DNA of 56,197 bases from Saccoglossus kowalevskii (taxonomy: Eukaryota; Hemichordata; Enteropneusta; Harrimaniidae): NCBI RefSeq assembly GCF_000003605.2, contig NW_003134843.1, forward strand, positions 121,054-177,250, given 5' to 3'. The notes beneath the pieces were generated by a model. The model worked only from the letters and a program-made list of their open reading frames with translations. It had not been told where the DNA came from and did no database searches. The translations under genes and the position numbers were made by a program. Below are positions 34,163 through 56,197 of the stretch, one piece after another (the stretch's first letter is position 1; each line of letters starts with the position of its first letter).

Positions 34163-35454
34163 TATATCAAAGTGCAGTTTTCTGAGAGTTTTCGGTCTTT
34201 TTCACCATCATGGTTGCCAGATTGTGAAAATAGCCAGATGCCCACCTCCTGAGAATATGCATCTACCAACTGTACTGTTACCACTGCTACAAATGACTCA
34301 CATTGTCTGTAGCATCTAACATGAAAGTCACTGTGGCTACTATATGTGTCTGAATAACCTTCACTGATTATTTGAAATCAGTTGTTGTGTAGCTGATTGA
34401 TGTGAAGCCTGTCTAACTTAGCGCATCTCCTGCTAAAAGCGTCCATGGATAGCCAGAATGAAAGGCGGCGGCAGCTAAGCAGGCGATGTGTTGACATCAA
34501 AAGATTTTAAACTTCAGAATTCTGTATCACTGATTTTTTGTAGACAAGTTTTTATTCCACATGGGTATTATCTCTCCAGATAGTCCATGTGTACGATACC
34601 TGGCTCTAGAGTTAACTCCAACAGTGATAAGACATGTACCTAAAACAGTTCTAAACTATGCCCGGCTTTGAAGATCAGCTTTGCGACAAAAACACTTTTT
34701 ATTTTCCCTCATTACAGAATAGTACCGGTAGTACAGAATGTTTTTTCTTTCTGTGGTAATGTTAATATGGTTTCTTGTAGGTCAAAACACTGTCAAAATT
34801 AGGGGGGGGGGTGACCTATTTTCACTCGGCAAACCACTTCGTTGCGACAGAGTTTACACGGTATTTTGTAGACCATTTAATTTTCTCTGCTGATGTATTT
34901 AGCTGAAACATCGACCAACAAATAAGATTGCCCATGGGCAATGTTGCTGCACTTTTTTTTTTTGTGCCATAACCTAGCACAGTGGTAATGTTTTTCAAGA
35001 GTGCAAATTAATATACAAATGGAAATTATTTTTGTCTTGTGCATCAATTACTAGAATAATTTTTGGTGATTCATTTTTTTTTCATATTAAAATAGAGGTA
35101 TGATCTGTCAGGTTGAATGAAAATTTCAAACACACATTTGTAGAAAGAGAATAAATGGGCCCAAAAACTTGTTATTTTTATTGATGTTGTACTAGTTTAG
35201 ATTTACAAATGATCAATCTTTCTCTAATTTCCGCGATTACTCAAGTCCTTTGGTGAAATTTACTTGGCACAGTAACATTTACATATCACTGCAATTGTTT
35301 GATTTGACAACGAATCACACCTCATCCACATGTCCACAGTTATAACAGATATTCAGACTCTATTCTTTGTATATGGATGTCGGTTACAGTGTTCGAGAAA
35401 GTACATGCAATGCATCTATGTAATACATCCATTCTACATGCAATGGGCATAACT

Positions 35455-35766
35455 CAACACTATTTTCTGATATGCCTATATATGGATATACATGTGAGCT
35501 TAGTTCAATCAGATCAACACTATTTTTTGATGTGCCCATACATGTATATGGGTATACCTGGGAGTATAGTTCAATCAGATCAACACTATTTCCTGATATG
35601 CCTATATATGGATATACATGTGAGCTTAGTTCAATCAGATCAACACTAGTTTCTGATATGCCCATATATGGGTATACCTGGGAGTATAGTTCAATCAGAT
35701 CAACACTAGTCTCTGATATGCCCTTATATGGGTATACCTGTGAGCTTAGTTCAATCAAGGCAACAT
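35455..35766 (+). repeat. 60-bp minisatellite, five units
   Basis: Units start CAACACTATTTTCTGATATG and end TTAGTTCAATCAGAT, at 35455, 35515 (66 bp), 35581, 35641 and 35701, with the start of a sixth. The period is a multiple of three, so long open frames appear on both strands. It lies in the eIF4E/CRD-gene intergenic region. Confidence 0.9.
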
Positions 35767-38680
35767 TATTCTTCCATCAGTCATTTATTATGCTTAACAA
35801 TTTTTTTTGTAAATAAATGCATTACAGACAATAGAAATATTGACTACATTTCCAGTCCCCTTTGCTATATGACCACTTTACCCCAGAGTTGATGGGAATC
35901 TCATTGTGGACTTAGCAGTAGCCTGGAAATGTAGGTTGCTTAGCAACATTTTGATAGTGCTAACTTTAGGTAATTCTAGAATGTTGACATTATTAGCTGC
36001 TAGATTTTTGTGTTTCAAACCTACTTGCAGCTGGCAAAGTAACTGCAGCTGCTTTTATGTTAATTTATGTAAATAATTACATAAACTTGAAAAAAAGATG
36101 CTTTCATTATAAAATGTGTAAATTTCTGTGGATTACTTTAAAATGACTTTGTATGTAGTTTATAGGTATACACTCCAACCTTTTTAACACCACTCAACTT
36201 TTTGGTCATCTTTCATAAAATGCCTACTATATTTTTTCCCCTCATATATTCTCAATTTTGATCAGTCAGTGTTGTGAATGGGGGAAAATCTGTTCACTAA
36301 GTCCAAAACAAAGTTATTGAAATATTCATGAAATTGTGGAACCAAAATTTTGACTGGAGAAAATGCACCATATCTGTTGGTAGATGGTTATTTTTTTGTG
36401 TCTACTTATCAGTCTAATTTTTAACCACCATAGATCTGTTGTGTTCAATTTTGAATTCATCATATATTTGCACTAAGCAATTTAAAATATACAAAGTAGA
36501 ACATCTGTTTTGTTTTGAAAATTATTTCTTATTGTATATTTATTCTTCAACTTCCAATCTTGAAGCACATTTCATCATAGTTTAGATAAGCTTGTAGCCT
36601 GTGTTAAAATTCAACTTCAACAAAACTTATATAAATCTGATCAATATTTTTTTCTTTCTTTTAATTATATTTTTAACATACAGAATTCAAAATGATGGTA
36701 TATTTTGTTTTTCTTTTTTTAAGTATTCATCCAAAAAAAAAATCCACAGCAACATTACAAAGCATTTCCTGATGAAACACTTCCTTTTGGTCTGTGTAGA
36801 TAGTTAACAGGTTTTTGCACTGAAATTATATAATCGCTAATATTATCTCTAGAATTTCACCGATTTTGCATGTTACAAAATCAAACCCACTACTACGACC
36901 ATATTTTTTGGATAAAATACAAAACAACAAAAAATTATAAGTTTATATACAAGAAACTAACAGAACAATGTTATTTGTGTTGCCATGGTAATCTGTATGG
37001 GGAATATTGGAAAGTTTGTTTGATGTCCTGCCTCAAGTGTTTTTCCTTCAGAACAAGATGTCATGCCAACGACTTAAATCATTTACTTTTGTTTTTCTCA
37101 TTATTGCATGTTTTCTCCTGGTGGAATTCTTTTACGTCAAAAATTAACTCTGAATGCACGAGATCGTATATCCATAAATGCAAGTACCTGTAGTGCCACA
37201 GTTGGCATCACGTTCGTTAATGTCTCATGCAACGTATGCGTCTTTAAAATATATTGTTTACACAAAATGGATGTAAAGAGTGGTGGTTGTTTCGAAAGCG
37301 TGCATTTGAAAGAGGTTCCGAACCACAGATAGCAGTAACGTAAAATGTGCGATCGCCTTAACCACTGTTCTTTAATGAGAAAACAAATTAAGACAATGAG
37401 AGTGTAAAATTTTCTATGGGTGTAGTTATGTTCGCGAAGCTCAGTTTTAGTCGCAATTAGCGTTAAATGAACAGGTTGACATTGCTTACGGCATTTTCAG
37501 TGTTGCAACTCGAAGCAGAAATTGAACCAGGATAAGTGTTTAGAAAGTTTTTATAACAAGTCTGTTATGTGAATATCATGTCTATTTGTAAACACAACTG
37601 TACATGTATATTTTCAAGTACAGATGTGCTTTGTTTCTTATTTTGCTCTCCCTCAATCATTAATCATAATCATCTACAAGTGAAAAAAGAAATTTACTAC
37701 TAAGTTTGTAGTAAACATTTTCTATTTGAAAATAAATACTGTTAGTTTATTCAATATGTATTGGATTTCTTTCATGATTTTGCTTGTAGGAGTGTGTGCA
37801 GCGTGTCTGTCAATCTGTTTGTGTGAATATCATTTCCCATTAGCTTCTTTCTGTTTGTCATGGTGCACCAAGCCATGCAAGGCAGGTAACTAGTAATGGT
37901 ACAGGCATTCTGCTTGTCCATCAAATTTTTAGTCTCCTGGTTACTTAGTGTTAAATCATAGTGGTTGAGTATGGTCCCATTACACACAAAAGTTGTGGCT
38001 TGTATATGAATTTGTTTTTTGTGTTTGCAACTAAATTGACCTGACATGACATTGAAGCCTGGTTCACAACAAATCCGAAGGGTCAAATTGTTAGTCATAT
38101 GCCATGTAGGGCCACTACTCGTATGAAGGGCACCACCAATAGAAAAAGCTCATTACTTCCAATGAATAACTACAGAGGGCACTGTGTCATGCATTTCTTA
38201 GATGTTTTTTTAGAAGTAAAATTCATTGTAGTTGTACAGCATGCAAGTATGCATTGTGTACATTGACACATGGGACCAACACCATTATGCGAGACATGTT
38301 AGATATGCCAACATACATAATGTGTTTACATAGAATTCATGTGTGCTGCACGACCATAGCACTTTCGTGAGTCTGACGTGTGGCGAATAAGGTTATAATT
38401 CCATGAAGTTGTTGTATGCCCACTGTTTTCCCATTGACATTGCTCCACACTTGGCTACTTCGTGTTGCGATATTTGTTGGGTATGAAGTGCAAAATATGC
38501 ATAAAAATAAAATATTACTTACCATGTACAGTGTATGGTATATCACAAAGTAACATTATAGTAGTCGCGTGTACGCTGCATCAAAGGGACACTGCCAGTA
38601 TTTCAATAAATTTATCATTGAGAGTATACAGCTTCATGAGGAATAAAGTTTAAAAAAATTTAAAAATAATTACCAAGGAT

Positions 38681-39030: not shown

Positions 39031-41277
39031 GATTATGATCAGGGCATTGTTCGCCAGTTATTAGCATGTAACTGTGACAATACATGTTTTCAAAATGATG
39101 GGATAAAGAAATAGGAGCTTAAATTATGAAAGTCTTAGCGAGATTGGATGTTTCTGGTTCATCCCCTCTGTGTTTATTTTAGTACTGTTAGCTTACAAGA
39201 TGATATTGGAAAGCGAGGCTCGGAATAGTTAAATTTCTCCTAGTTTTCAAGATAGACTCGACTTCACTGATCGGTTTGCCATCTTTTGACTGTAACTAAA
39301 AATTGTCTGGAACTTTTTTATTTAGACATGATATATTTAGATGTAAATAGATGAGGTAATAATTTGTACGCCATTATCGAGATGAACAATTAAAAGATAT
39401 TTTTAATTGTTAAAATGTAATAAAACTCTATGCAGCCGCAGATAAATAACTAATTTATAGTAACATGTACACCTTTTGGATCATACTTTATACATGTACA
39501 AGTTAGTATTTGGTATACTGGGAATGTTATTCTGTGAAAAACAGTGGTGGACTGTTGTCCAGAAAGCGACAAAACTGAGCAATTTCAGTGATTGATAACA
39601 TGATAATTATGCATCGCAATGCTAATTTATTGAAGACCCTTTTAATATGTGAAACTGGTTCAATCATTATGCAAATCAAATTCATTGTTTTTATTTAGTC
39701 CATTACTTAGCATGGTCATGTAAATTTATGGTAGAATATTTACCTACAACTGGGTTTAGGAAAATTATGCACCAAATGCATCCAATGCACAGTAAATCTC
39801 ATCCAATGATATTTAAAATGCAATACATAATCAGATCTTAAAAATGTTTTTTTTATTTGAAGCTGTATACTAGTAATGCATCTTACCTTCCATGTATTAT
39901 ACACAATTTATGTGGTCAAAAAATAGGGGGAATATTTATTGGGTCTAATGCCCTCTAGCAGTAAAGTTGGGAAATGTGATTATTAAGGGACATCAGCTCA
40001 TTATACATCTTAATTTTTCAATGAATGGAGAATTGAAAATTCAAGGTATTTTCTATAAATTATCAAATTTATCTCATTGTAAGTATGCACAGCTCAAGTT
40101 ATTTAATTACTCAAAAAAAAACTATGGGTATGACCAAGCTTGACCAGTAGATTGTCATTTTTACTGGCTTGGCTGTATGCGCACCAGGTTTTAAGCAGTT
40201 CTTTTAAAAACTGGTCGCTGTAATTATTCGTTGTTTTGTGAGCAATGCACAGTTACCATGACAATGATGCTTTGGAGCATCATGTGTTGCATGTAAAAGC
40301 AGCTGGGAGATTATTTGTTGTTTATTCTCGACCACGGATTGTCAATTTATGGGGCTTTAACATGCCGAGGAAATCATTGGGAAACCGGCGAGTGAAAAAC
40401 GAATGGCTAATTTACTTATTCTGTAGTAGCATTACACTGTCAAATTTTAGAATATGGACACAAATATTTGTTTACATTGCTTAGGAATATTGTGGTCTGA
40501 ACATGATTTTGCCGAGAATATCATAAACATTTCGTTTAGTTGTCTATATTCTTGATACATACATGTGACCAGACTATACTGTTATGCATCAGTTTTAAGT
40601 TTGTCAGTTTTTCAAAACAATCAGGAATAAGATTAATATGCCAAAAGGGTAGCACATGACTGTTTTAATCAATTGTTACAATATAATGGAAAACCATCGT
40701 GTCATGTTTATAAAAAAGATTTATTCATTTTATGAAATTGTTATAAAAGTATTTATAAAAATACAGCTTATCAAGTTAAAGAATTGAGACAATGCTTAAA
40801 AATCTTTCAAAGTAAAATTCAGGATTACATTTTTAACCATAGCCTTAATGGAAATAAAAATAAAAATAACCTATACAAATTGTTAAGATTAATTCAAATG
40901 TAGCGTATGATATAAACAAAAATCAATAATTCAATTGATATGCTCACAAATTGGAATCACAGAACAATTGAAAATATCCCCCCCCCCCAAAAAAAAATAT
41001 CACAATATGGTTGATAAAATATATATTTTAATCTGTATGTGACACAAATTAAAAGTTTGTCAACTATTCACTATGAAATGGCTACATGGACTGAACTTGT
41101 ATAAAAAAAGAAAAAAAAAAGAGTTGCTGTGGTTTTGTGATAAATACCACTCTCGTCAATCATTATTGTTCTTCTCTTTCAGGCTTTTCTTTCCCTACAT
41201 TCAGCATTATACACAGTCATTAAAACGTAATAAACAGAAACATCGGTGGCATTCACAGTACAGATTCATTAAAGTAA

Positions 41278-41322
41278 TAATAATAATTATCATCATCATC
41301 ATTATATATATATATATATATA
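41278..41322 (+). repeat. TAA/ATC/TA microsatellite
   Basis: A run of TAA, then ATC, then about nine TA units. Confidence 0.9.
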
Positions 41323-41735
41323 TCGTCTGGCTTGTTTGGATCGAATAACAGATGGACGAATGAGGGCATGATTTCATCACAGACTGAATAGGTCTGAATT
41401 GGGTCTTGACTATTAACATGAACACAACTGCTGTAATCCTTCTGCAAACACTAAGAATTAAACATTTCGGCACTTGCCAAGATCCTATAACGTGATCAGT
41501 ATCAGTCAATTGCTGACTGATACTTGCATGACACATAATTCTTACTAGCTTGTAAATGCTAGCAATATGTAATTCATTGTTGTGTGAACCCTACCTATAC
41601 ACACATGCAGTTCTGACTACAGTGCTACTTTATGGTCAACCGTTAAATCTAGGACAACATTATTGCAATCATTAAAAACCTAAAAAGACCATTCAATTAG
41701 GAGTATGTAAATAAATACATATAAAAATAAGTGAT

Positions 41736-41741
41736 TTTATT
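41736..41741 (-). terminator. Candidate poly(A) signal of the CRD/EGF gene
   Basis: AATAAA on the minus strand, about 230 nt after the stop codon at 41973. It is the first canonical signal I noticed downstream of that gene. Confidence 0.4.
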
Positions 41742-41972
41742 CCTGCTCTTGTCCAGGAAATGTAACAGAGCAGTAATTAAAGCATTAAAAATATTGCATT
41801 TTACAATTAAATTCCTTTAGCTTGGGATCTTCACATAACGTGATCTTCCCAAAAATGTTAAGCAAATCGGAATCATGCAATGTGAATATAATAGTATCCA
41901 AGATGGTTATTACAAGTGACATCAACTGGAATGGTAGGTCTCTGCCTGCAAACGAACACAGATCTGTGATCA

Positions 41973-42323
41973 TCAATCTGTCGTCTTGGTTTTGTCTAAT
42001 GACATATACTCGCTGTCAACTTTTTGGGTCCCATCAAGTTCCTGGTAATGTGGGTTCCAAACAGCGCTCAACCTTTGACCTTCACCCTCTGCAGACTCAC
42101 AACCGGGCGATGACGGTACATCTTCTACAGGTTCACAGAAAGGTGCATGCTTCAGTGCTGGATCATCACACTCTGCATATTTGTTTTCCAAAACTGCATC
42201 TCGTGGTTCCTCTTGGTATGGCCCATTATAGCCATTCACATTTGCACCATTGGGACCACCAGTGTTGTCATTTTGATTGGCTTCAGTTACAGGATCTACA
42301 TCCACCTGTACTGCTTCACTGTC
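41973..42323 (-). CDS. Exon: cytoplasmic tail, terminal part with NPHY and YMSL
   Basis: This 351-nt terminal exon starts in phase 0 after a GTCCAG acceptor and ends in TGA. It is acidic and Asn/Gly/Glu-rich. It carries a second NPxY motif (VWNPHYQELD), several other tyrosines (GYNGPYQEE, ENKYAE) and a C-terminal SEYMSLDK, which fits a YxxPhi sorting signal or an SH2 site. Confidence 0.88.
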   Translation of the reverse strand, partial: DSEAVQVDVDPVTEANQNDNTGGPNGANVNGYNGPYQEEPRDAVLENKYAECDDPALKHAPFCEPVEDVPSSPGCESAEGEGQRLSAVWNPHYQELDGTQKVDSEYMSLDKTKTTD

Positions 42324-45300
42324 CTGGACAAAAAGGAGTAAGCAATTAAAATTACCCATGATTCACAAATTGGTTTGACTCTCCACAACTAATAAATGCT
42401 GTTACTACAACAGACTTTAGATGCTAATGGCTGCCAGGATATCGTTGACAGTGAGAGGCCGACAAGACTCGTTTCTGCCTTTCAAATAGTGTTCTATTCT
42501 GTCATCACGTTTACTGATCTTCATAACCATAGCAACCATATAACAGTGAATGCAATGACAAAAGTGAATTTGAACAGCAATTTTTTTAATATTAATCTTA
42601 TAAAGGTTTTATCAAATGTTTTATTGGGGTGTAACTACAAGGTACCATGGCGTGACCTCAAATATGCAACGTTATTTAGAATGAAATGTTTTATTTTTAT
42701 TGATGAAAACCAGGCGCGCTGGGCCAGGGAAATTATTGCCCTGATGTGAGGGCGCACTTCTCATAGTGTTACAAGGCTGGGCAATACTAGGTATACGATA
42801 ATAACAAATTTGTCACACCTATGAGAACTAACTAAACACAGAAGTGACATGAAAATGCTGACAATATTCGACTTCAAGTAAATCCTGAAGTTGTTTATAG
42901 CCTGAGAAAAACCCATGCTAAAGTATTCCAACCCCAGGTATAAACACACTATTCTAGTTTTTTCGCTTGTTTTACCAATTTTTTGTCGAAATTGAACGCC
43001 TCCATGTATAATCACATTATGTTTTGCTTAATCATTTGTGAAATACCGATTTAACTATACTAGAAAACAAAATGAACATAAGAAGTACTGTACATCTCAC
43101 CTTGTTTTTACTTTTCACTGCGCTGCCTTTACCATCTGTAAACTGTTCATCATATGCCGGATTGGTGAACACTGCAATATCTGGACGGCTCAATAAATAT
43201 CTTGATTTGCGGCTTACATGTTTTCTGAAACAACAAAACATTGCGTATTAAAAATAACAAAAACCTGCATTATGACTATGGAAAAAAATGGTGGTCGGTA
43301 TGCACCAAATGTGGATGCCGGGATTGACCTTTGACCTATGTTCACCTTTGACATGGATGACCTTTGTTGACCTAGATTGACATTCTTCCTAGACACCAAT
43401 CCTGTATAAATACACCACTGAATGGCCATGACAAAAATGTTTTCTGGTATTTGGACCATCTTGACCAAAGACTTACACTACAAGGTTCAAATTCAAACAA
43501 ATTAACAGATCCAACTTTAATAAAATCCTCATATTCAAAATATATTTTGTTTATTTATTACCTATTATTCTGATGCCTACTAAACACCAGCCTAGCAACA
43601 TTCCAGACCCTTTACTATTTACTGTATTGTTTACCAATAGACTGAGTATTTTAAGTGTCCACATGTAATTGTAAATTCCGATCTCACTTGGCAAATGAGC
43701 AATTCACAAAATACAGATGCAGTATTCATTTATTTATTACTAGCCTGTGTCCTTCATACAAAATAAAATCTATGTACTGGTATTCTGGTGTAAGGCAGAA
43801 AATGAGATCACTATTTATAGTTGTATTGGACAAAAAAAAATAACTCTAGGACAAGCTTTTATATTATTTTAACCTTCTCAACCACCAGACGTCCTTGCCC
43901 AAATTTGTCTGCACTTTTTTCTTATATTTTTCAATATTTTGGGAAATGAACCCTAATTTTTGGGCCAACATACAAAATTTGAGTCAATTCTCAGTTTCAT
44001 CGTGGTATACAACCCTCAAATAGTATAATTACCTTCCAAAGTGTGAAGAGCTCATAGGTCGATTCTGAAACATGTAATTACAAACAATATCACTTTGGAA
44101 ACATTTCCGACGATTAAATGGCCGGCAATTAGATACAAATTCAGCATATCCCAATACCAGGGAGGTCATGTAATCATTCAGTATGCAATGTTAACCTTTT
44201 TGCTACCAGTTCCCTCTTTTCATCACAAATTCACAAAATAGTCCTGTTTATAAGTTTGCACTTTCCTGCAGAAGATTGGGACAAAAATAGCAAAATTTTT
44301 GAGTAAAAACTGAAAATTGACTCAAACTGTGTCTGTTGGCTCCAAAATTAGGGTTCATTTCTGGAAATATTCAAGAATATGAGAAAAAAGTGTGGACAAA
44401 TTTGGGCGAGAAAGTAGTGAAAAAGTTAAGTTTCATCGGATGTACAAGTATTTGCATATACAAGACCACATGAACAAGTGACCTAGCAAAACTACATTTT
44501 TTAAAACAAAATTTCACATAATGGTACATTGAAATTACATATTTCAGTTTCATGTGTGTTTTTTGTGACTGTGACAGAAAATCGTAAAAATTTCATTTTT
44601 TGAGAAAGATTATGGCATCAGAGGATTAAATATTTAATCACATCCATCATTAACAAATTGTACAAACCATCGTTAATAGTAACTAACCTGCAGATTAATA
44701 CTAATACTATCACCATGGTAACACCAATAATACATGCTACACTAATCCCAATACCTAGAGAAATAGCCTCCTTTTTAGCTTCTTCTTCTGAATGGAAATA
44801 ATATAAATGAGAGATTTAATATGTGATGTGCAAGAAAGTTTACTATTCAAAAAATTACCTTGACAAATTTCATTCAATCAGCCATGAGCGATACTTTTTA
44901 CATATTTTTTAATCTTTGTCATACTGAGTCAACATGATCTTTGAGTTACATAAATAGAGTGAATTTGAATATAATCAGTCAAAGCATTTAATAAATATGG
45001 CTCTAGAAGCCCATGTAATTGTTGGTAAGGCCAGACTTTTTTTATTCCTCGTTTCTCGAGTTTTTATAAGGCATTTTTTTTGAGGAGGGCGGGAAAAAAA
45101 TAAAATTAATTCTTTTTTTCCATTGGATTTGTGTGATTCTCAAAGAATTGTAAGTGAGATCATTGATCGGAGAGAAGAAATGAAATAAAATTTTATTCCA
45201 TGTATAACCTTATTTCTCATCTGTGTGAGACTTCGGTACTTTGATCATGATACTCCCATGAAAATGCAACTTGGATTTGTTATGCGGCGGGCGGTAAAAA

Positions 45301-48300
45301 AATGAAGATAAAAATAATATTTCTTTGCGCTTACAAGTCGGCGGGTGCAAAAAATTACGCTGAAATAAAATTTTATTTTTATTTCATTTTCAGCTCCTGT
45401 TCATTCGGTGGGTTCGCAAAACAAGGGATAATAAAAGTCTGGCCTAAGGCATGTTTTGGTTTTGAAACTTCGCCATTCAAAAATGCACAGGATTTTGTAT
45501 GCATGATTTTGCCTTGGAATATTAAAACGTTATGTTATGCAAATTTCCTAAAACTTTACTCAACTTACCTAGTTTTTCCTGCTCTGCTTTGGTTAATATT
45601 CTTTTTTCACATTGCTGCCCAGTAAAATTACCAGAACAACTGTGGAGATAAAATAAAAAGAAGAAATATATGACACTGAGCACTTTCATCATGTTACCTA
45701 AAGAAAAGCTGCCAACAAAGTAATCTGTAACATGTATATTACATGTATGCACTGTAGGTTAAAGCCATGCGTAGCTTTATTTATTCTGTTATAATGTACC
45801 GTAGGATGGTTCCCAGAATGAACAAGACTTGCTTGCAGTCTGTTGCGATTCCAATGGTAATGTGAGGGTGCTTACATTGACGGCAAATCTGTTAGAATTT
45901 TGTGACCACAGGACTTTTGCATTAACCCCTCGTTTATGCAATTTATATTTATTTTTCACAAATTTTTCATCAGAATCACAACAGACTGCAAGCAAGTCTA
46001 AGAATGAACCAATACCTAACATCAGATTTTAATCTGACGGCAAGTGCCCAAATGTATAAAATGGGACAGCATGTTATAGACCTATAACATTGTTTTTCCA
46101 CAGCATTTTTAAGGTCGTAAGAAGGATACTTTTCAATGTAAATGCTCAGGTAAAACATAAGATAAGGCATTGTGTGTAGTCAAATAAATGTTTTTGGCTT
46201 GAAGGCAATTATATTAGAGATATTCTACTAATAAAGGATTTATCACACTTGGTTATATTCAGGCACATAGACTTGAGTACATTAGGAGTAATTTTGTCAA
46301 ACAATCCATTCAGTTTTTTTGATACAAAACCATCCGCATAAGTGGTGGTATTACTACCGTAACCCAACAATTGTGAGTGGATAAAAATTTGACTTACAGA
46401 CAATACATTTCCTGTGTACCATCATCTCCTTTAAGAACATAACAAATTCCATCATTTTTACAATAAGTTAAATGATAATCGCCCTGGCAACGGATGTCTC
46501 CTCTCTTGCTCGTTGACTCGCTTGTTGCAGTTGTCACTTCTGCATACCACAGATTTCATTGCATAGGAGAAAGAGAATAAACTCTGTTATGAAATACAGG
46601 TAAACAATTCATACAAAATATACCAGTAAATATTAAAATATACATGTGTTTGTTGTTGGTCAAAGATTCCCCAATTGAATGTTATTATTTTACAGACAGA
46701 TCTGAACATTTTAGCTGAAATTAATTTTCGCTGAAAAGTCTTTTTGGGTGTTTTGTATGGAATTTATTTTCACTGATTTTTGACGAGTTGAATGTAAAAT
46801 ATAGAAAAAAAATGTATATTCGTTGGATTTTATTTTCACTGATTTATCCCTTCAGCAAAAATAGTGAAAATTAATTCCAAGCGAAAATAAATGAATTTTA
46901 CAGTAGTTCAATTGTGGTCAAAATGACAATAGACATCCCTTCTTGCAACATTCACAAGCCAAAAACTAATAGTAAATGTACTGTATAATTTGCTCTATAA
47001 TTTTTGATGAGTTGAATGTAAAATATCCCTCAAGGGATAGGAAAAAAGGTATATTCGCTGGATTTTATTTTCACTGAATATCCCTTCACCGAAAATAGCA
47101 AAAATTAATTCCAAGCGAAAATAAAGTATTTTGCAGTATGCTACAAGAAAAAATATGGTAACTGCTTACATGTATAGGAGTAAACAAATTTGACATTTGC
47201 TGCATTTTGATGTTTAAGGTATCCTTCAAATAGAAAAAAAAAATCCATACCTGGTTGGTATCCAATACATACGTCTTCATTATCTTCATCTGGGAAGTTT
47301 GAACATTCAAATTCCTCCGGCCATTCATAGTTGTACTGATCCAAAATGGTACCACATCCTTCTTGTACGCCACGACACAGTGACTGACACGGTGGTATGA
47401 TGTTGTCATTCACGCACGGCGGGAACAACGTGGCACATATGGCCAAGTTTAAATGTTCGTAACAGTTAGTCAGTGTAAGTAGTATATATTCCTGTAAAAG
47501 GACCTCTGCTTCTTCTTGAGTTTGGTGGCCAAACATGTTTGGGAAACCAGTCTGTGAGTATGACAGTCCCTGACAAAATGATACCGTAATATCTTCGCAT
47601 TGGGGAGAAAGAGCTAGAAAGAGAATGAAACTAATAACAATCACAAAAACCTATGTTTACTGTTAAATTTTCTCAATGTCCAACTAAGTACAATACCTGA
47701 ATTTCGCTAAAATTGAATTCTCAAACAGACTTTTCACTTAAAATTAGCCAAGGGAGGTAAGTCATTGCAGCATGCATGTGTGAATGTGTTCCACAACCCA
47801 ATGCGCTCAGACAGTGAAGAATACAAGCTTTGGTCGGGTCACACAAAATCTGGAGTAGCTATTAGTGATTAAAAATATATTTTAGCATGGTTGCTCTTAT
47901 TTACAGTACTTTTAATGGGAACATAATGTAATGTTTAATTTAATTATCTGTTGACTATTGAAACAACATCTTTTTTCATTTAATGAGAAGTGGTCTTTGC
48001 AGCACCCACGTCCTAATGTTTCCCACAACCAATGTGCTCAAACAGTGATTTTCCCACAATCCAATGCACTCTCCCAGAGGCAAGCATGAAATTATACGAG
48101 TTTTGATCTGGTCACAAGATGAAATAATAAAATACCAACTTTGACTCCTTAGAGACTTTTGATGCATTCCAATCATCCCAGAAAATACCTAGTTAAGCCT
48201 CAATGATTTTTGTATGATCTATGCAACAATCAAAGTTCCCATCTTTGTTAAACCGTTTGAGTACCATAGTCAGCTTCACATTAACAATTCCATTTATAGT

Positions 48301-51300
48301 CTTTTCCACATGAATTGTTGCGTAAATTTCAAAAATTTCGATCAAAAACTAAAAGCATGTCACATTTTGTCAGTTTTGTCCAAAAGTAAGATTGAATTCA
48401 GAGAAAATTACAGAAAATATGAAGAAATCTACTGAAATTTAAGTGGGAAAAAAGTTTGGAATTCAAAGGGTTAATATGAGACCTATATCAAATGCAATGA
48501 CCACCACCCCTCATGTATGCATGTTTGTATAGAGAAAACATACATGTACCTAGCTGAGAAGTAGAAACACTCTCTGTAAGCAGCTTAGTTGAAAATGGTG
48601 GCTGTGTAGTGGGCAATGAAGGAGAATGCACACAGGATGAATCACTGGGCAAAACAGAACAGTTTAGTTCCTGCGGCCATGGGAGGTCCACATCTTGAAA
48701 CACTTGAAGACAATTTGCGAGGCCCTCTTCACAGAATGACCTACAAGGTGGTTGGATTTGCCCAAGCCGACATGGAGGCATGAACGCAGTGCAGAGCAAG
48801 AGCTGAAGGTGCTCGTAGCAGTCAGATGACATGATAGGCTTATAGACCTCCAAATAGATGTTGGATTGTTGTTGCGATGAGTGCCCGGCAAAGTTAGGGA
48901 ACCCGGTCAAGAAATATGGAAGATTATGAAGACAGAATGGTGCATTGATAACTTCACAGAATACTGCAAATGAAGTGAACACAGAGTTTTATGAGAATTA
49001 TAGTATAATAGAAGCAGTGAAACAAAGAATGAAACATTTAAACTTATCAAAGTCAATGTTAACAAGACATATTCACTATAGCTACTATGAAAAGGATCAC
49101 AGTCATCATCCTGAGTGTGCTGAACAGCATTTCTGAACTGAAGCCATAAAAAATACCTAAAGTACTATCCCATGTCATTGACTATGAAAATAGGTATCAT
49201 CTTGCAACTGGGACACAACCTGAATACACAATACTGTAAATGAATGAAGCGTTGGTATTCAATTTTTTTTTAATATGTGTATTAATCATTTTTCACATTA
49301 CTAGTGATTAATCGAGAACTGGGCACTTGTGGTTTAGACAACTGACTCGAAATGATCAAGGATTTTACACCTGCAGCCAATCAGTGCCCTACAGTACAGT
49401 ACTTTTTTTAGACAACCAGTGATGCAGTTCTGTAAGCCGTGTTCTGATTGGTCACAAACTTTTCTCACACAAAATTAAATTGGTTTATTGTACAGGTAGG
49501 CCATTGCACTTATTGCACTTAAGTTTTGTGTGTACAGGAAGTGGTTGGTAAGAAATGATAATTTTTTTACATCTGAAGAAAAAGAATAATTGCTTCACCT
49601 ATTAAATGCTGTTGTTATTAAATATAAATATATATGTTCCAGTCATAGAACATTAACATTTTGGCAATGTGGTCACAGATGATCATTAGCAGTCTGGTTG
49701 GTAAAATGTACAAAAGCATATATTGAAAACACTTGCGGGAATTGTTCATGTGGTCAAAGTAGAAACAATTAAACAAAGCTTTACTGAGACATTGACATTA
49801 AGAGTAAGACATTTAAAAACTCACCAAGACACTGAGGGAGTGGATGACTCCATTCGCCTTCAAGACACGTCAGTACATGGGCCCCACTGAGATGATATCC
49901 AGCATCACACATATAGGTTACAATGGTGAAAGCTTCATAACTGGGTGTCCCAACCTGAAATCCATGGGCTATGGTGCCAGGATCATTACAATTGCCTATA
50001 AACAATAACAATAACAATCACTGCAGAGAACAATGAAAAGTAAATTGACATGCATGATATAGTAGTAAATGTTAGAACAAACAATTAGAAACTATGTGTA
50101 TCATATGAACTTTGCATACAAATCAAAAAGTATTTGTTCTCATACAGACACGTAACCTGCCTGCTCAAGCTCCACAGACATAAGCCAAATAAGAAAATAA
50201 GGCAAATCCAATTATACCCCGGTATATAGATTTTCTCATACAGGTTGGTAGAATTACAATAAAATCTACATCATGATTTTCGCATAAAGGCCTGAAATTG
50301 GAAATAATTACATTTCCCTACATAAGACATTAAAAGCTTTTTTCCTTTTTCAAAGGGTTTCAAAGTGATATTTCCCAAATTTTTTAAAAATGAAACAAAC
50401 ACTCCAAAGATAACAGTAAGAGGAGGGGGTTTGTATTGTAAAAACTTTCAAGAATAAATCTATTTAATTTAGACAGACATATTCTATGCTTACCAAAATA
50501 TGGTTTCCATGGTTACAATTGATAACACTATACTTACTAACACAGCTTGGAAGCGGGAGGTTCCAAGTGCCATCTGACGTACATGTCAACGTAGATGCTC
50601 CAGACAGAATATAACCCGAATCACACTCTATGGTGAGAGCAGTGCCAACGTGAACTGGATAACTTTCCAAAGGAACACTTAAAGTAGCTGATGCAACAGA
50701 TCCTGGATTCTGACATACTGTCAAAAAAATGCAAGCAGTAATTCTAACATTGCGCAACTATTATAAGCATACACATGGTAAAACCTGTGGGTGGGGGGTA
50801 CATATCGGTAATATTTTTCCGATTTGATATACCTGTAGAGCAAATACTGTGGAATACTTTATTTTCGCTGCAATTAATTTTCGCTGAAAAGGCTTTTTGG
50901 GCGTTTTGTATGGAATTTATTTTCACTGATTTTCGATGAGTTTAATTCAAAATATAGGAAAAAAAGTATATTCGCTGGATTTAATTTTCACGGAATCATC
51001 CCTTCAGCGAAAATAGTGAGAATAAATTCCAAGCGAAAATAAAGTATTCTACAGTAAGTTAACTGTTTTATGTGTAATAAACAGTGATGACAGAAATGGT
51101 ACTTTGGTATAAATATGGGTATAGATTTTGCCACTATCCAGGTATTAAAATGGTCACACTTTTGAGCACTCAGGGGCACCTTCCTAGCCAGCTATGTATC
51201 AACTGCTCCCCCCCCCCCATACATATACAAACATTATATGAAAATTAGAGAAATTCTCATTCAAAAATAAAACAAGCAGCCTGTCGGCTGAGATAGCTCC

Positions 51301-54300
51301 GCTGTTAGTAATGTAAATGGGAATTAAAGAACAGAAGATATCATTAGAAAATGAACAAATTTGAGAGAGGTTCACATGTAGTACCTATATGCATAATATA
51401 TCAAAGTAAATTGGACTTGCGGTTTTCAACAAGAAGTCGAAAATATCACTTTTTACCAAAAATTACAAAAATATTCATCAAAATTAGAGAATTAAAGATA
51501 TCATCATGAAATGAACAAATCTGAGAGAGGTCAACATGTAGTACCTATATATGTAATATCAAAGCAATTGGACTTGAGGTTTTTAACAAGAAGTCGAAAA
51601 TATCACTTTTTACCAAAAATGACAAAAATATTCACCAAAATTAGAAAATTAAAGATATCATTACAAAATGAACAAATCTGAGAGAGGTCCACATGTAGTA
51701 CCTATATATGTAATATCAAAGCAATTGGACAAATCTGAGAAAGGTCTACCCAAGGTACATATACACCAAGTATCAAAGCATTCAGGCTTGTAGTTTTCAA
51801 GAAGAAGTCGAAAAAGTAAAACATTGACACGGACGATGACGGACAATCACTCATATGATGGTACTTTGGTATAAATATGGGTATAGATTTTGCCACTATC
51901 CAAGTATAAAAATGGTCACACTTTTGAGCACTCAGGGGCACCTTCCTAGCCAGCTATGTATCAACTGCTCCCCCCCCCCATACATATACAAACAACATAT
52001 GAAAATTAGAGAAATTCTCATTCAAAAATAAAACAAGCAGCCTGTCGGCTGAGATAGCTCCGCTGTTAGTAATGTAAATGGGAATTAAAGAACAGAAGAT
52101 ATCATTAGAAAATGAACAAATTTGAGAGAGGTTCACATGTAGTACCTATATGTATAATATATCAAAGTAAATTGGACTTGCGGTTTTCAACAAGAAGTCG
52201 AAAAAATCACTTTTTACCAAAAATTACAAAAATATTCATCAAAATTAGAGAATTAAAGATATCATCATGAAATGAACAAATCTGAGAGAGGTCAACATGT
52301 AGTACCTATATATGTAATATCAAAGCAATTGGACTTGAGGTTTTTAACAAGAAGTCGAAAATATCACTTTTTACCAAAATGACAAAAATATTCACCAAAA
52401 TTAGAAAATTAAAGATATCATTACAAAATGAACAAATCTGAGAGAGGTCCACATGTAGTACCTATATATGTAATATCAAAGCAATTGGACAAATCTGAGA
52501 AAGGTCTACCCAAGGTACATATACACCAAGTATCAAAGCATTCAGGCTTGTAGTTTTCAAGAAGAAGTCGAAAAAGTAAAACATTGACACGGACAATGAC
52601 GGACAATCACTCATATGATAAGCTCGGCTCGACAAAGTCGACAGCAGAGCTAAAAAAGAAAGAAAGAAGTATAAAACAAAAGTTTCTTGTATGGGATTTC
52701 ATCTCCCAATCTTCTACTTGCAAAGCAATGATCTTAACTACACTTTCAAAAATTACAGTTTTGGAAGATCAACTCTAAAATCTATACAGGTCAACTATAC
52801 CTGCAGATTATCCAATACACAAGTGTGATAGCAATCAGCTGAATATTATTGCAAGAAAAGTTTACAATGATGACACCAACAGACAACAGACATTTTGCAA
52901 CTACTGGGGTACTATGATCTTCCCTTCACTTTTTTACAGGCAGCCAATAAAAGTTAAAATTGAAAGAATCTAAATTTCAGTAACTTTAAATTACAAATAA
53001 CCAATTCCAGTGGTTGAAATAAAAATTATATCAAGTTATACTTGACTGTGTAATTTATTAATTATTTAAAATACATGCAAATACACAAATTTAGTCTTAA
53101 TACCAGATTAGTTAATTGGGAGCATTAATAGTGTTTTGTTGTTGTTGATTTTTTTCTTTCTTTATTAGTTTTGTGATGTACATGACCATTTTTACCTTTT
53201 CCGGGAAATACATGTACTACGAGTAATAAATATTGTACAATTGCCCCTTTACCACAGTAGATTGTAATTGCACTGTTGTAAGGCATAAAATGCAAGCCCA
53301 CAACATTACAGTACAGAGCAGTGTAAATATTATGCATATATTCATGAATATTAGGTATAATTTTTCAAGTTTAAGTTAAAATTTGTGATAGAGAGAGCTA
53401 ATAGAAATGTACTTTTCTTATTATTCTTTGGTATGGGAAAACTTGTACACACTCACCAACTGGTTGGTATCCAACACACACGTCTTCATCATTAGCGTCT
53501 GGGAATGTTGAACATTCAAGTTCCTCTGGCCATTCCTGGTTGAAATGATCCAACATAGCACTACATCCTTCTTGTGCACCACGGCACAGTGACTGACAAG
53601 GTGGTATGATGCTGCCATTAACACAGCGAGGGAACAATGCGGCACATATGGCTAAGTTCAAATGTTCGTAACAATCAATCAAAAGAAGTAATGAATATTC
53701 TTGTAAAACAGTTTGAGCTTCTTCCTGTGTTTGATGACCAAATAGGTTTGGAAAACCAGTCTGTGAGTAGGACAGTCCCTGACAATCAGACACTCTAATG
53801 TCTTGGCACTGTTGAGAAGAAGCTGGAATGACGGAAAAAGTTTCATTTTAAAAATGTTGTGAGTCTGGGTAACCATTTTTATTTGGTCATGGTTAGGTCA
53901 ATTTAGGTCAATGTCATATATACATGTAGCACCACATATGGTAGAATGGGGAGATATTTGTTTTTTGTTTCAGAGGATGTTTTGTTGATCTAATGCAGGT
54001 TTTTATTCAAAGTGCCTACATGTATTCAAACGAATTTAACATATTTTTTCTTAATACGAAAAAGACAAGCCATGCATGGCACAGTCCCCGTTAGTTATCA
54101 AATTTAAGATATATAGTTTTGTTTATAGTAATATAGCTGGAATATAACTATGTCAGAAATATGATTTTTTAACATTAAAATGATTGACATTTGTATCTGA
54201 TCGTCAAACAAGTACTTGTCCATATTGAGAGATATTGCTCTGGAACAGCATTCAAAATCAGCCATTTTGAATACATGTATATATATATAACATAATGTAT

Positions 54301-56197
54301 AACGAATATATGAAATTTGAATATAATCAGTCAAAGCATTTAAGAGATATGGCTCTAGAAGCCCAATCATTAAAACAAAATGGCCGCCAATCAGCAATTT
54401 TGAATCCAATCTGAAAAATAAAATTACTTGCATCAGGAACCTGTAATGTCTAATGTATGTTATAAGTTTGAACAAAATCCATCCATAAATGCAAGAAATG
54501 CTTGATATTTGAGGATTTTTTTAGCACAGAAATAGCCACCATTTGGCCACTTTGAAAAAGATCGTCAAATCAATATATTCGTATATCTATGATGTATAAT
54601 GAATATTAAAAATTTGAACATAATCAGTCAAAAACAAGTCAGACATATGGGTCTGGAAACCCATTCATTAAAACAAAATGGCCGCCAGACAGCCATTTTG
54701 AATCTGATCTGGAAAATAAAATGATGTGCATCAGGAACCCGTAATGTCTAATGTATATACCAAGTTTGAACGAAATCCATCCATAAATGCCAGAAATGCT
54801 TGATATTTGATAATTTTTTAGCACAGAAATGGCATTTTGAATAGGATCGTCAAACCAATATATCTGTCTATCTATGACATGATGTAAAATGAATATTTAA
54901 CATAATCAGTGAAAGCAAGTCAGACATATGGCACGAGAACCACATTCATTAAAACAAAATGGTCGCCAGTCCGCCATTTTGAATCTAATCTGAAAACAAA
55001 ATTATTTGCATCAAGGTCACACAATGTCTAATGTATATACCAAGTTTGAACAAAATCCATTTGTAAACAGCCTAGAAATGCTTGATTTTTATGATTTTTT
55101 AGCACAAAATTGGCCGCCATTCGGCCATCTTAAATCAGATCGTGAAACAAATTGATGTGCATATGTATAATATCATATATGATGTATGTGTGAAGTTTGA
55201 TTGTGATTGGTCAAGGCATTTCAAAGATACAGGTTCGGACGCATGCACGCACGGTCGCACGTAGGTCAAAACATAAGTCCCTGTTTTCAGACTGCGTCCG
55301 AACGGGGACTAAAAATATAATCGTGTCGCCACAGAATTTTAAATTTATTAAATTAAATTTACATAACCACTGCTGTGAACGAACAAGCAAGCCAACTCGC
55401 AATATTGCAATATACTATAGAATACTTTATTTTAGCTGGAATTAATTTTAGCTGAAAAGGCTTGTTGGGTGTTTTGTTTGGAATTTATTTTCACTGATTT
55501 TTGACATGTTGCATGTGAAATATAGGAAAAAAGTATATTCTCTGGATTTTATTTGAAAATAAATTCCAAGCGAAAATAAAGTATTCTACAGTAGTTCACT
55601 GTTTTGCTAACAAAAAAGCAATAATGATATCAGCTTAATAGCATTACAAACAATACTGCTGATTTATATATAGTAAATGTTATTCAGGGCTTAAAACAGA
55701 CAACGTAAGTACACAAAAAAGATACTAATATTTTTTTTGATTATTTTGGTCCAGATACACATGATGAGTTAAAATTTAGTATTCGAAGAGTTAATGCTCA
55801 CCTGTACTGGTTGGCATTGATGATAGGACTACTGATGGTGATAGTGTAGTCGGTGCTGGTGTTGTAGTATCCTGATCTGACATAACAGTTCCAAAACAAA
55901 CTTCCGAGTCATAAGAATCAGGAAATGTATCACATATTAATTTATCAGGCCACGGAAATCCAAAATTATTCATTACAGGATAGCATCCATCGTAGACTGA
56001 TTGACACAATGACTGACATGGTGGAAGTATACCAGGAACATCATCACATTTTGGAAAATACAATGCACAGAGGAAATCAGCTAAGTGCTCAGAACATTGG
56101 ATTGAAAATAATGGAATATACTGGTTAATCTCCAAAGCAGCATCCTCTGCATTTGTTAATCCAACATAGTTTGGAAACTGCGTCTGATTGTAAGTTG
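41973..56197 (-). CDS. Mosaic type I membrane protein: 4 Frizzled CRDs, 2 sushi, neuregulin-like EGF, TM, NPxY tail (5' partial)
   Basis: Eleven exons on the minus strand join without a frame break: 56197-55802, 53822-53457, 50717-50538, 49995-49825, 48963-48550, 47613-47251, 46539-46398, 45639-45569, 44787-44688, 43224-43101 and 42323-41973. They encode 891 residues in the window. The order is CRD, CRD, sushi, sushi, CRD, CRD, EGF, transmembrane helix, tail. Thr/Ser/Pro-rich linkers follow the first and third CRDs and are likely O-glycosylated. Frizzled CRDs bind Wnts or lipids, sushi domains bind proteins, and an EGF of this type next to a membrane is the layout of ErbB ligands. I do not recognise this combination as a named family. 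Related multi-CRD proteins include corin and MFRP, but no protease, LDLa or CUB domain is seen here. The signal peptide and any further domains lie right of the window. Confidence 0.88.
43101..43224 (-). CDS. Exon: cytoplasmic tail, first part with NPAY
   Basis: This 124-nt exon, phase 2 to 0, runs from a basic juxtamembrane stretch KHVSRKSRYLLSRPD to FTNPAYDEQF and a Lys-rich end. NPAY is an NPxY motif of the kind bound by PTB domains and endocytic adaptors. Confidence 0.88.
43869..44010 (-). mobile_element. TTAA-ended repeat (family G), half copy
   Basis: Starts TTAACCTTCTCAACCACCAG and matches the right half of the copy at 44191-44429 in reverse. Confidence 0.5.
44191..44429 (+). mobile_element. 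TTAA-ended repeat (family G), copy 2
   Basis: About 240 bp starting TTAACCTTTTTGCTACCAG and ending AGTGAAAAAGTTAA. The ends are inverted with TTAA at both extremes. It lies in the intron between the transmembrane and tail exons. Confidence 0.6.
44688..44787 (-). CDS. Exon: transmembrane helix
   Basis: This 100-nt exon, phase 1 to 2, has charged EEEAKKEA followed by about 24 hydrophobic residues (ISLGIGISVACII, then GVTMVIVLVLIC). It ends in Arg at a basic stop-transfer (RKHVSRKSR continues in the next exon). Confidence 0.92.
44935..45025 (-). mobile_element. AGTCCCCGTT element, fragment
   Basis: GAATTTGAATATAATCAGTC and CTCTAGAAGCCCA match one module of the copy at 54083-55310 (near 54310-54370). 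A PIF-like MITE sits at its edge. Confidence 0.55.
45029..45444. mobile_element. PIF/Harbinger-like MITE, 416 bp
   Basis: Flanked by TAA (45026-45028 and 45445-45447). The inverted ends are GGCCAGACTTTTTTTATTCC and GGATAATAAAAGTCTGGCC. A 3-bp TAA/TTA target duplication is typical of PIF/Harbinger. It lies in the intron between the EGF and transmembrane exons. Confidence 0.7.
45569..45639 (-). CDS. Exon: EGF domain, second part (Cys 5-6) and juxtamembrane
   Basis: This 71-nt exon, phase 2 to 1, encodes CSGNFTGQQCEKRILTKAEQ and EKL. It completes the EGF with C5 and C6 and starts a highly charged juxtamembrane segment. Confidence 0.9.
45824..46000. mobile_element. MULE-like MITE, 177 bp, with 9-bp target duplication
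   Basis: The direct repeat AGAATGAAC lies at 45815-45823 and 46001-46009. Inside are inverted ends of about 28 bp, AGACTTGCTTGCAGTCTGTT on the left and its complement on the right. A 9-bp duplication is the hallmark of Mutator-like elements. It lies in the intron that splits the EGF domain. Confidence 0.75.
46398..46539 (-). CDS. Exon: EGF domain, first part (Cys 1-4)
   Basis: This 142-nt exon, phase 1 to 2, starts with a VTTATSESTSKRG linker. It then carries C1-C4 of an EGF fold in RCQGDYHLTYCKNDGICY and EMYCL. The intron falls between the fourth and fifth cysteines. Confidence 0.9.
46705..46903. mobile_element. Palindromic TA MITE (family C), left end worn
   Basis: Shares AATTAATTTTCGCTGAAAAG and the ending CAAGCGAAAATAAA with the family. 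The right boundary has CAG followed by TA. It lies in the intron between CRD 4 and the EGF exon. Confidence 0.65.
47004..47136. mobile_element. Palindromic TA MITE (family C), truncated
   Basis: The right half of the family, ending AATAAAGTATTTTGCAG before TA. It is about 115 bp downstream of the CRD 4 exon on the gene's strand. Confidence 0.6.
47251..47613 (-). CDS. Exon: Frizzled CRD 4
   Basis: This 363-nt exon, phase 1 to 1, has ten cysteines. SYSQTGFPNMFGHQTQEEA, CYEHLNLAICATLFPPC and IIPPCQSLCRG are shared almost unchanged with CRD 2. It lies directly upstream of the EGF exons. Confidence 0.93.
47750..48090. repeat. Pair of similar segments between CRD 3 and CRD 4
   Basis: Two diverged direct repeats share GTTTCCCACAACC/GTTCCACAACCCAATG, GCTCA-ACAGTGA and a GGTCACA end. 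One is at about 47760-47850 and the other at about 47990-48120. Origin unknown. Confidence 0.4.
48550..48963 (-). CDS. Exon: Frizzled CRD 3 plus Ser/Thr/Pro linker
   Basis: This 414-nt exon, phase 1 to 1, has ten cysteines in the CRD pattern, with LTGFPNFAGHSSQQQ, CYEHLQLLLCTAFMPPC and IQPPCRSFC. It is clearly diverged from CRDs 2 and 4. It ends with a Pro/Thr/Ser linker (SPSLPTTQPPFST and onward). Confidence 0.92.
49825..49995 (-). CDS. Exon: sushi (CCP) domain 2
   Basis: This 171-nt exon, phase 1 to 1, is one complete sushi module. It reads NCNDPG, YMCDAGYHLSG, LTC and EWSHPLPQCLG, with four cysteines and the conserved Trp. Confidence 0.93.
50538..50717 (-). CDS. Exon: sushi (CCP) domain 1
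   Basis: This 180-nt exon, phase 1 to 1, is one complete sushi module. The four cysteines lie in CQNPG, IECDSGY, LTC and PSCV, with the conserved Trp in DGTWNLPLPSC and a GY-LSG turn. Confidence 0.93.
50847..51054. mobile_element. Palindromic TA MITE (family C), 208 bp, intact
   Basis: Third copy with exactly 208 bp between TA dinucleotides and both inverted ends preserved. It lies between CRD 2 and sushi 1. Confidence 0.8.
51099..52655 (-). mobile_element. GCGGAGCT repeat, with a recent 762-bp tandem duplication
   Basis: Two almost identical units, 51099-51860 and 51861-52620, differ at only a few bases and in the length of a C run. Each contains three modules of about 157 bp and the AGCAGCCTGTCGGCTGAGAT segment. 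The element ends near GACAAAGTCGACAGCAGAGC at 52632-52655. It lies between CRD 2 and sushi 1. Confidence 0.75.
53457..53822 (-). CDS. Exon: Frizzled CRD 2
   Basis: This 366-nt exon, phase 1 to 1, carries all ten cysteines: QC, DC, DC, AIC, PRC, PPC, SLC, GC, EC, VC. It also has the family's SYSQTGFPN-FGHQTQEEA core. It closely resembles CRD 4 at 47251-47613, far more than either neighbour. Confidence 0.93.
54083..55310 (-). mobile_element. AGTCCCCGTT element, minus-strand copy with both ends
   Basis: The ends are inverted: AGTCCCCGTTAG at 54083 and CGAACGGGGACT at 55310. The modules match the copy in eIF4E intron 5. No coding sequence is recognised. It lies in the intron between CRD 1 and CRD 2. 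Confidence 0.68.
55415..55591. mobile_element. Palindromic TA MITE (family C), internally deleted
   Basis: Both ends are present (CTATAGAATACTTTATTTTA and AAAATAAAGTATTCTACAG) and flanked by TA, but about 30 bp is missing inside. Confidence 0.7.
55802..56197 (-). CDS. Exon: Frizzled CRD 1 (partial) plus Ser/Thr/Pro linker
   Basis: The exon opens outside the window and ends in phase 1 at ACAG|GTGAGC. It encodes QTQFPNYVGL, then CSEHLADFLCALYFPKC, LPPCQSLC, a GC, and W-P-D-KLIC. Eight of the ten CRD cysteines are inside the window, and the first two would lie upstream. The C-terminal end is a linker, TTTPAPTTLSPS and onward, of mucin type. Confidence 0.9.

Follow-up and report, generated by a model that had tools for sequence, protein, structure and literature searches.

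The window analysed here, that is the whole stretch of 56,197 nucleotides at positions 121,054 to 177,250 of contig NW_003134843.1 (C2662:121054-177250), comes from the hemichordate Saccoglossus kowalevskii, whose genome assembly comprises 572 Mb in 4,830 contigs. The minus strand of the window carries a gene whose eleven exons, when joined, give a single open reading frame (ORF) of 891 residues running from 56195 to 41973, with the stop codon at 41973. Along the joined protein the order is Frizzled-type cysteine-rich domain (CRD), CRD, sushi, sushi, CRD, CRD, EGF domain, transmembrane (TM) helix and cytoplasmic tail. The exons are listed below with window positions, Pfam E-values and intron phases.

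Exon A, 55802..56195, minus strand: CRD1 (N-terminal side incomplete) and a Ser/Thr-rich linker; Fz E = 5.9e-26, with the match starting at profile position 14; donor phase 1
Exon B, 53457..53822, minus strand: CRD2 with 10 cysteines; phase 1-1; Fz E = 1.1e-27
Exon C, 50538..50717, minus strand: sushi 1; phase 1-1; Sushi E = 2.1e-10
Exon D, 49825..49995, minus strand: sushi 2; phase 1-1; Sushi E = 3e-10
Exon E, 48550..48963, minus strand: CRD3 and a Ser/Thr-rich linker; phase 1-1; Fz E = 2.7e-24
Exon F, 47251..47613, minus strand: CRD4; phase 1-1; Fz E = 1.7e-28
Exon G, 46398..46539, minus strand: EGF cysteines 1-4; phase 1-2
Exon H, 45569..45639, minus strand: EGF cysteines 5-6 and start of the stalk; phase 2-1
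Exon I, 44688..44787, minus strand: remaining stalk and TM helix (hydropathy peak at residues 715-733); phase 1-2
Exon J, 43101..43224, minus strand: start of the cytoplasmic tail with FTNPAY (motif at residue 753); phase 2-0
Exon K, 41973..42323, minus strand: remaining tail with NPHY and YMSL, and the stop codon

All ten junctions have GT/AG ends and one frame is kept throughout; the intron phase is 1 for junctions one to six, and 2, 1, 2 and 0 for the remaining four. The joined protein matched Pfam Fz in four stretches (E = 6.9e-102) and Sushi in two (E = 4.5e-18), and all six CRD and sushi exons also reached Fz or Sushi when searched singly. When splice sites on the minus strand of window positions 40001-56197 were ranked with a textbook matrix, all ten acceptors fell within the best 17% of AGs and all ten donors within the best 10% of GTs. 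An AATAAA is present at 41741 on the minus strand, and both N runs within the window (13987-14036 and 30862-31361) fall outside the gene. The hydropathy profile contained one strong hydrophobic stretch (residues 715-733), and the membrane topology is by inference single-pass, type I. The eleven phase-consistent exons, their positions and the domain order, sushi modules included, had been put forward in the original prediction, and the frames, splice ends and Pfam matches bear them out. Two weaker Pfam matches were rejected, namely Glypican (E = 0.18, under the cut-off) and Protocadherin over the TM helix and tail (E = 0.0063; score 17 bits, cut-off 26.3). Rfam gave no match in the whole window, and in NCBIfam there was no match to the EGF-TM part and one match, at chance level, to CRD4. 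Three kinds of repeats were observed in the introns: a tandem duplication between CRD2 and sushi 1 (51096-52619; spacing 760-762 bases, copies 98-99% alike, containing 156-base repeats), a 298-base tandem array of 2.8 copies between CRD1 and CRD2 (54310-55114) and a 121-base dispersed element present in two introns (50844-50964 and 55412-55532, 86% alike).

The exons had been proposed to belong to a single gene, and phase and spacing agree with this. The intron between exons F and G is only 711 bases with compatible phases, and no Met precedes the EGF domain in the open frame of exon G. The sole signal-peptide-like ORF in this intron (46556-46681, with MYILIFTGIF) was considered as a separate start and rejected, as none of the six GTs after its ATG is a consensus donor and the resulting intron would be at most about 100 bases. 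A crude gene finder whose codon usage came from three of this genome's Frizzled ORFs was run at five intron costs. At each of them one-gene models outscored split models by 23-26, of which 20 is the fixed cost of ending one gene and starting another. Exons F-K were recovered exactly only at the lowest intron cost, with A-E cut differently, and higher costs dropped G, H and I. The preference of the gene finder is weak support for one gene, and stronger support comes from the short intron, the phases and the startless frame of exon G.

Contig position 177251, directly after the last base of the window, is the first of a run of 4,126 Ns, which may be an assembly gap, and CRD1 is short of about 13 profile positions at its N-terminal side. 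Given that the N run abuts the window end, CRD1 is incomplete and the domains listed are a minimum set. The remainder of CRD1 must lie in or beyond the N run, as must any signal peptide (none was seen in the available part of the protein), and further domains may be present upstream of CRD1. Beyond the N run, profiles built from this gene detected no additional CRD or sushi exon at contig positions 181377-216899, where the sushi profile was weak (two sequences) and part of the sequence is masked by two N runs (about 192.7-194.5 and 212.9-216.9 kb).

As delimited, CRD2, CRD3 and CRD4 have ten cysteines each and CRD1, with its first part missing, has eight. The nearest PDB chain was Frizzled-7 for both CRD1 (116 bits) and CRD4 (93 bits), and Frizzled-10 and Frizzled-6 for CRD3 (67 and 65 bits); among solved CRDs the Frizzled receptors ranked before sFRP3, sizzled and Smoothened. 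The CRDs are therefore of Frizzled type, as had been claimed, both by Pfam and by their nearest solved relatives. A tree was built from 29 CRDs of the same genome (the four of this gene and 25 others, leaving out the weak L021 and L023 and L026, a duplicate of L003), for which the bootstrap had not settled. In this tree the four CRDs grouped with Frizzled receptors, CRD1 and CRD3 without a resolved position, and eight of the nine CRDs from corin-type loci were placed across the root split from them with weak support (46/77). CRD2 and CRD4 formed a pair (support 94/97) with 75-76% identity, and their divergence (dN 0.147, dS 0.730, dN/dS 0.20 by NG86; dN 0.176, dS 0.423, dN/dS 0.41 by YN00; dN and dS being nonsynonymous and synonymous divergence) looks as if shaped by purifying selection. 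In the stretch aligned with HQFYP of Frizzled-7, CRD1 has NQYIP and CRD4 has QEYIL; the QFYP part is one that we take to belong to the Wnt-lipid groove. An AlphaFold2 model of CRD4, predicted from a four-row alignment of the four CRDs, was of moderate quality (best mean predicted local distance difference test score 76.9; 45.8-68.3 for the other four models).

The cysteine spacing of the EGF domain is 8-5-13-1-8, and in the joined protein this domain did not reach the Pfam EGF models. Against the PDB the joined EGF domain matched heregulin/neuregulin-1 best (E = 4.6e-6) and Spitz next (E = 0.0014), and a Notch chain (E = 0.037) ranked just before EGF itself (E = 0.043). With an E limit of 1, neither of two cysteine-preserving shuffles matched an ErbB ligand; one of them matched complement receptor 2 at E = 0.098. 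According to Stein and Staros (2006; PMC1618406), ErbB ligands are characterised by an intron that separates C4 from C5 and by an EGF domain near the TM helix, and the residue before C6 is Arg in every verified ligand except the tomoregulins; mucins and meprins share the intron and TM features and are only putative ligands. The present domain is split between C4 and C5 by the phase 2 intron between exons G and H, is separated from the membrane by a charged stalk of 21 residues in which QEKxEE aligns with heregulin-alpha, and has the same C3-C4 spacing of 13 as the aligned neuregulin-1. In that alignment it has Gln in place of Arg before C6 and, through an insertion, 8 residues between C1 and C2 instead of 7. 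Given the absence of this Arg, ErbB agonism is not supported and the EGF/TM cassette is filed as neuregulin-like and not as an ErbB ligand. The ErbB-ligand-type EGF of the original prediction was accordingly upheld as a neuregulin-like type beside the membrane (neuregulin-1 match, C4-C5 intron) and not as an actual ErbB ligand (Gln before C6, C1-C2 spacing of 8). No close paralogue of the EGF-TM-tail part was found in the genome, in which four of the nine matches at E up to 10 were the gene's own exons and the other five had E of 0.61 or worse. Two of five matches to the receptor L domain were identified as ErbB-type L1 exons (on C775 and C2664, the latter match spanning two TGA codons, with the open stretch alone used). 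Neuregulin-type ligands have been found in bilaterians only, according to a published study (PMC4914847), in whose main text word counts gave neither 'frizzled' nor 'sushi'.

About 20 residues past the TM helix the tail contains FTNPAY, an FxNPxY motif, and further along NPHY; two YxxL motifs, including YMSL, are also present. The tail alone gave nothing meaningful against the PDB (best E = 0.64). In LDLR and EGFR, FxNPxY is bound by the PTB domain of Dab2, which is active in the uptake of these receptors (PMC9821069). The link to endocytosis that had been suggested thus has its motif in the tail, and an uptake function would be consistent with it.

From these exons, frames, domains and the tail motif we infer a ligand, endocytosis and possibly a contact with ErbB receptors. 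The reading that we tentatively favour, as a possibility that falls short of an even chance, is that the protein may capture Wnt multivalently and take it up by endocytosis, as a receptor whose membrane part is a neuregulin-like EGF/TM cassette. The groove of the Frizzled CRD accommodates the Wnt lipid (PMC8251975), and the CRDs of this protein would bind lipid-modified Wnts, with CRD1 as the most Frizzled-like site, while the sushi modules would either act as spacers in the array or interact with a partner. The FxNPxY motif would recruit a PTB adaptor (of the Dab2, ARH or GULP type), and the ligand held by the CRDs would thereby be taken in and then cleared or handed on. The EGF domain near the membrane could come into contact with ErbB receptors, for which a modulating role is likelier than agonism. 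Several points weigh against this reading. It is drawn from sequence, a single FxNPxY is a short motif, and the EGF domain has no needed role in the mechanism. In addition, CRD2 and CRD4 are unlike Frizzled-7 at the QFYP-aligned stretch, and these two domains may therefore not bind the Wnt lipid.

The main rival is that the protein is a neuregulin-type membrane pro-ligand, with an EGF domain that acts on ErbB in shed or membrane-displayed form, and with CRDs and sushi modules that localise the protein to Wnt-rich or matrix sites, as the Ig, kringle or type III domains do in neuregulins. The ranking of neuregulin-1 and then Spitz among solved relatives, the C3-C4 spacing, the C4-C5 intron and nearness to the membrane, the charged stalk and the ErbB-type L1 exons would all fit such a ligand. 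However, Gln stands where Arg is expected, the C1-C2 spacing is 8, the preference is limited to neuregulin and Spitz, with the Notch chain ahead of EGF, and the mucins and meprins show that the intron and TM features also occur in proteins that are only putative ligands; overall we regard this explanation as unlikely, with an appreciable residual chance. Slightly less probable is a scavenger, adhesion or immune receptor, whose CRDs and sushi modules would bind lipids, microbes or cell debris and whose tail would drive uptake. The tail of CED-1/Draper is a parallel for uptake through NPxY and YxxL motifs; NPAY, NPHY and the two YxxL motifs are compatible with such a role, as are the numerous sushi exons of the genome, but the CRDs are closer to Wnt-binding Frizzleds than a generic scavenger module needs. 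It is quite doubtful that Wnt and ErbB signalling are coupled in one protein, with Wnt-loaded CRDs controlling whether the EGF domain meets ErbB on the same or a neighbouring membrane, so that Wnt capture would gate EGF-type signalling. Finally, the wrong joining of two adjacent genes, one for a secreted CRD/sushi protein and one for a neuregulin-like EGF/TM protein, is highly improbable given the F-G intron, the exon G frame, the donorless ORF and the one-gene scores, even though the gene finder retained G, H and I at one intron cost only.

In the same genome, 38 Fz exon matches were obtained on 20 contigs. For sushi, 150 of 268 candidate exons were scored, and the contig lists, transcribed by hand, were overlapped. 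Only two of the scored sushi exons shared a contig with CRDs, both from this gene, and no second contig with CRD and sushi exons was found among the exons scored. At G000:C1172:16785-23186, an open frame of 2211 residues contains many sushi repeats. By eye from exon translations, with the single-CRD contigs C3652, C1467, C1652, C4726, C93 and C2502 excluded, the other multi-CRD loci looked like corin-type proteases on C1058, C2346 and C2858; C3577 seemed to bear CRD-LDLa genes, and C770 a receptor that combines Ig and CRD. On C1058, C2346 and C2858 the loci L013, L015, L017, L024 and L025 showed, again by eye, corin-like exons that include CUB, LDLa, Fz, EGF and trypsin, without each locus having the full set, and might represent an expansion of corin-type proteases. 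No description of the domain architecture was found in titles and abstract openings of the literature searched, with most subscription journals outside its coverage. The suggestion that the architecture is undescribed holds to that extent, and within its own genome to the contigs compared; the mosaic gene is real and, as far as tested, unusual.

Several further features were observed elsewhere. A PP2C-like gene, identified by eye, lies on the opposite strand with exons from about 196.4 kb of the contig. Within the window, a near-same 19-base minisatellite (likeness by eye) is present in opposite orientations at 13399-13745 and 14500-14767, flanking a stretch with the N gap 13987-14036. There is also a perfect tandem repeat with a 28-base unit (6674-6848, 6.2 copies), and 35387-35776 contains a 60-base tandem repeat of five copies (35454-35757) that is open in frame on the minus strand. 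On the mitochondrial contig G000:C4830 (L043), comparison by eye with known sequences gave TGA as Trp, AGA where Ser is expected and, in ND1, AAA where Lys is expected; ATA stands at Ile/Val positions, conserved methionines being ATG. This pattern presumably, and provisionally, matches the hemichordate code. COX1 is on the strand opposite to ND1 and a COX2-like frame.

If transcripts confirm the gene, domain shuffling would have combined a capture array of Frizzled type with a membrane cassette resembling that of neuregulins, and the protein would be an obvious candidate for mediating crosstalk between the two signalling systems. It would also add a further split, membrane-proximal EGF domain without the Arg of verified ErbB ligands, and thereby a test case for the role of arginine-less EGF domains.

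Corin and MFRP are multidomain membrane proteins with CRDs, which is their likeness to this protein. As had been predicted, their partner domains differ: no trypsin, LDLa or CUB domain was found by Pfam in the available part, and sushi modules and a neuregulin-like EGF domain are present instead. Members of the LDL-receptor/LRP family resemble it in the FxNPxY of a single-pass tail and differ in their LDLa and beta-propeller domains, neither of which Pfam detected in the same part. The CRDs are nearest to those of Frizzled-7/2/1 and Frizzled-10/6, but Frizzled receptors have a seven-pass domain (here there was no Frizzled 7TM match in Pfam and one strong TM stretch), secreted Frizzled-related proteins have a netrin-like domain (no Pfam match here), and the present protein differs from both groups in having four or more CRDs. 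With neuregulins and other ErbB ligands (NRG1, Spitz) it shares the 13-residue C3-C4 loop, the C4-C5 intron, the membrane-proximal EGF domain, the charged stalk and the single TM helix, whereas it lacks the Arg before C6, has a CRD/sushi array where neuregulins have Ig, kringle or NRG1 type III domains, and carries FxNPxY in its tail, a motif that to our knowledge is absent from neuregulin tails. Tomoregulins (TMEFF1/2) also combine a split membrane-proximal EGF domain without the conserved Arg with other modules ahead of it; these modules are follistatin domains in tomoregulins and CRDs and sushi modules here, and the residue before C6 is His there (PMC1618406) and Gln in the present protein.

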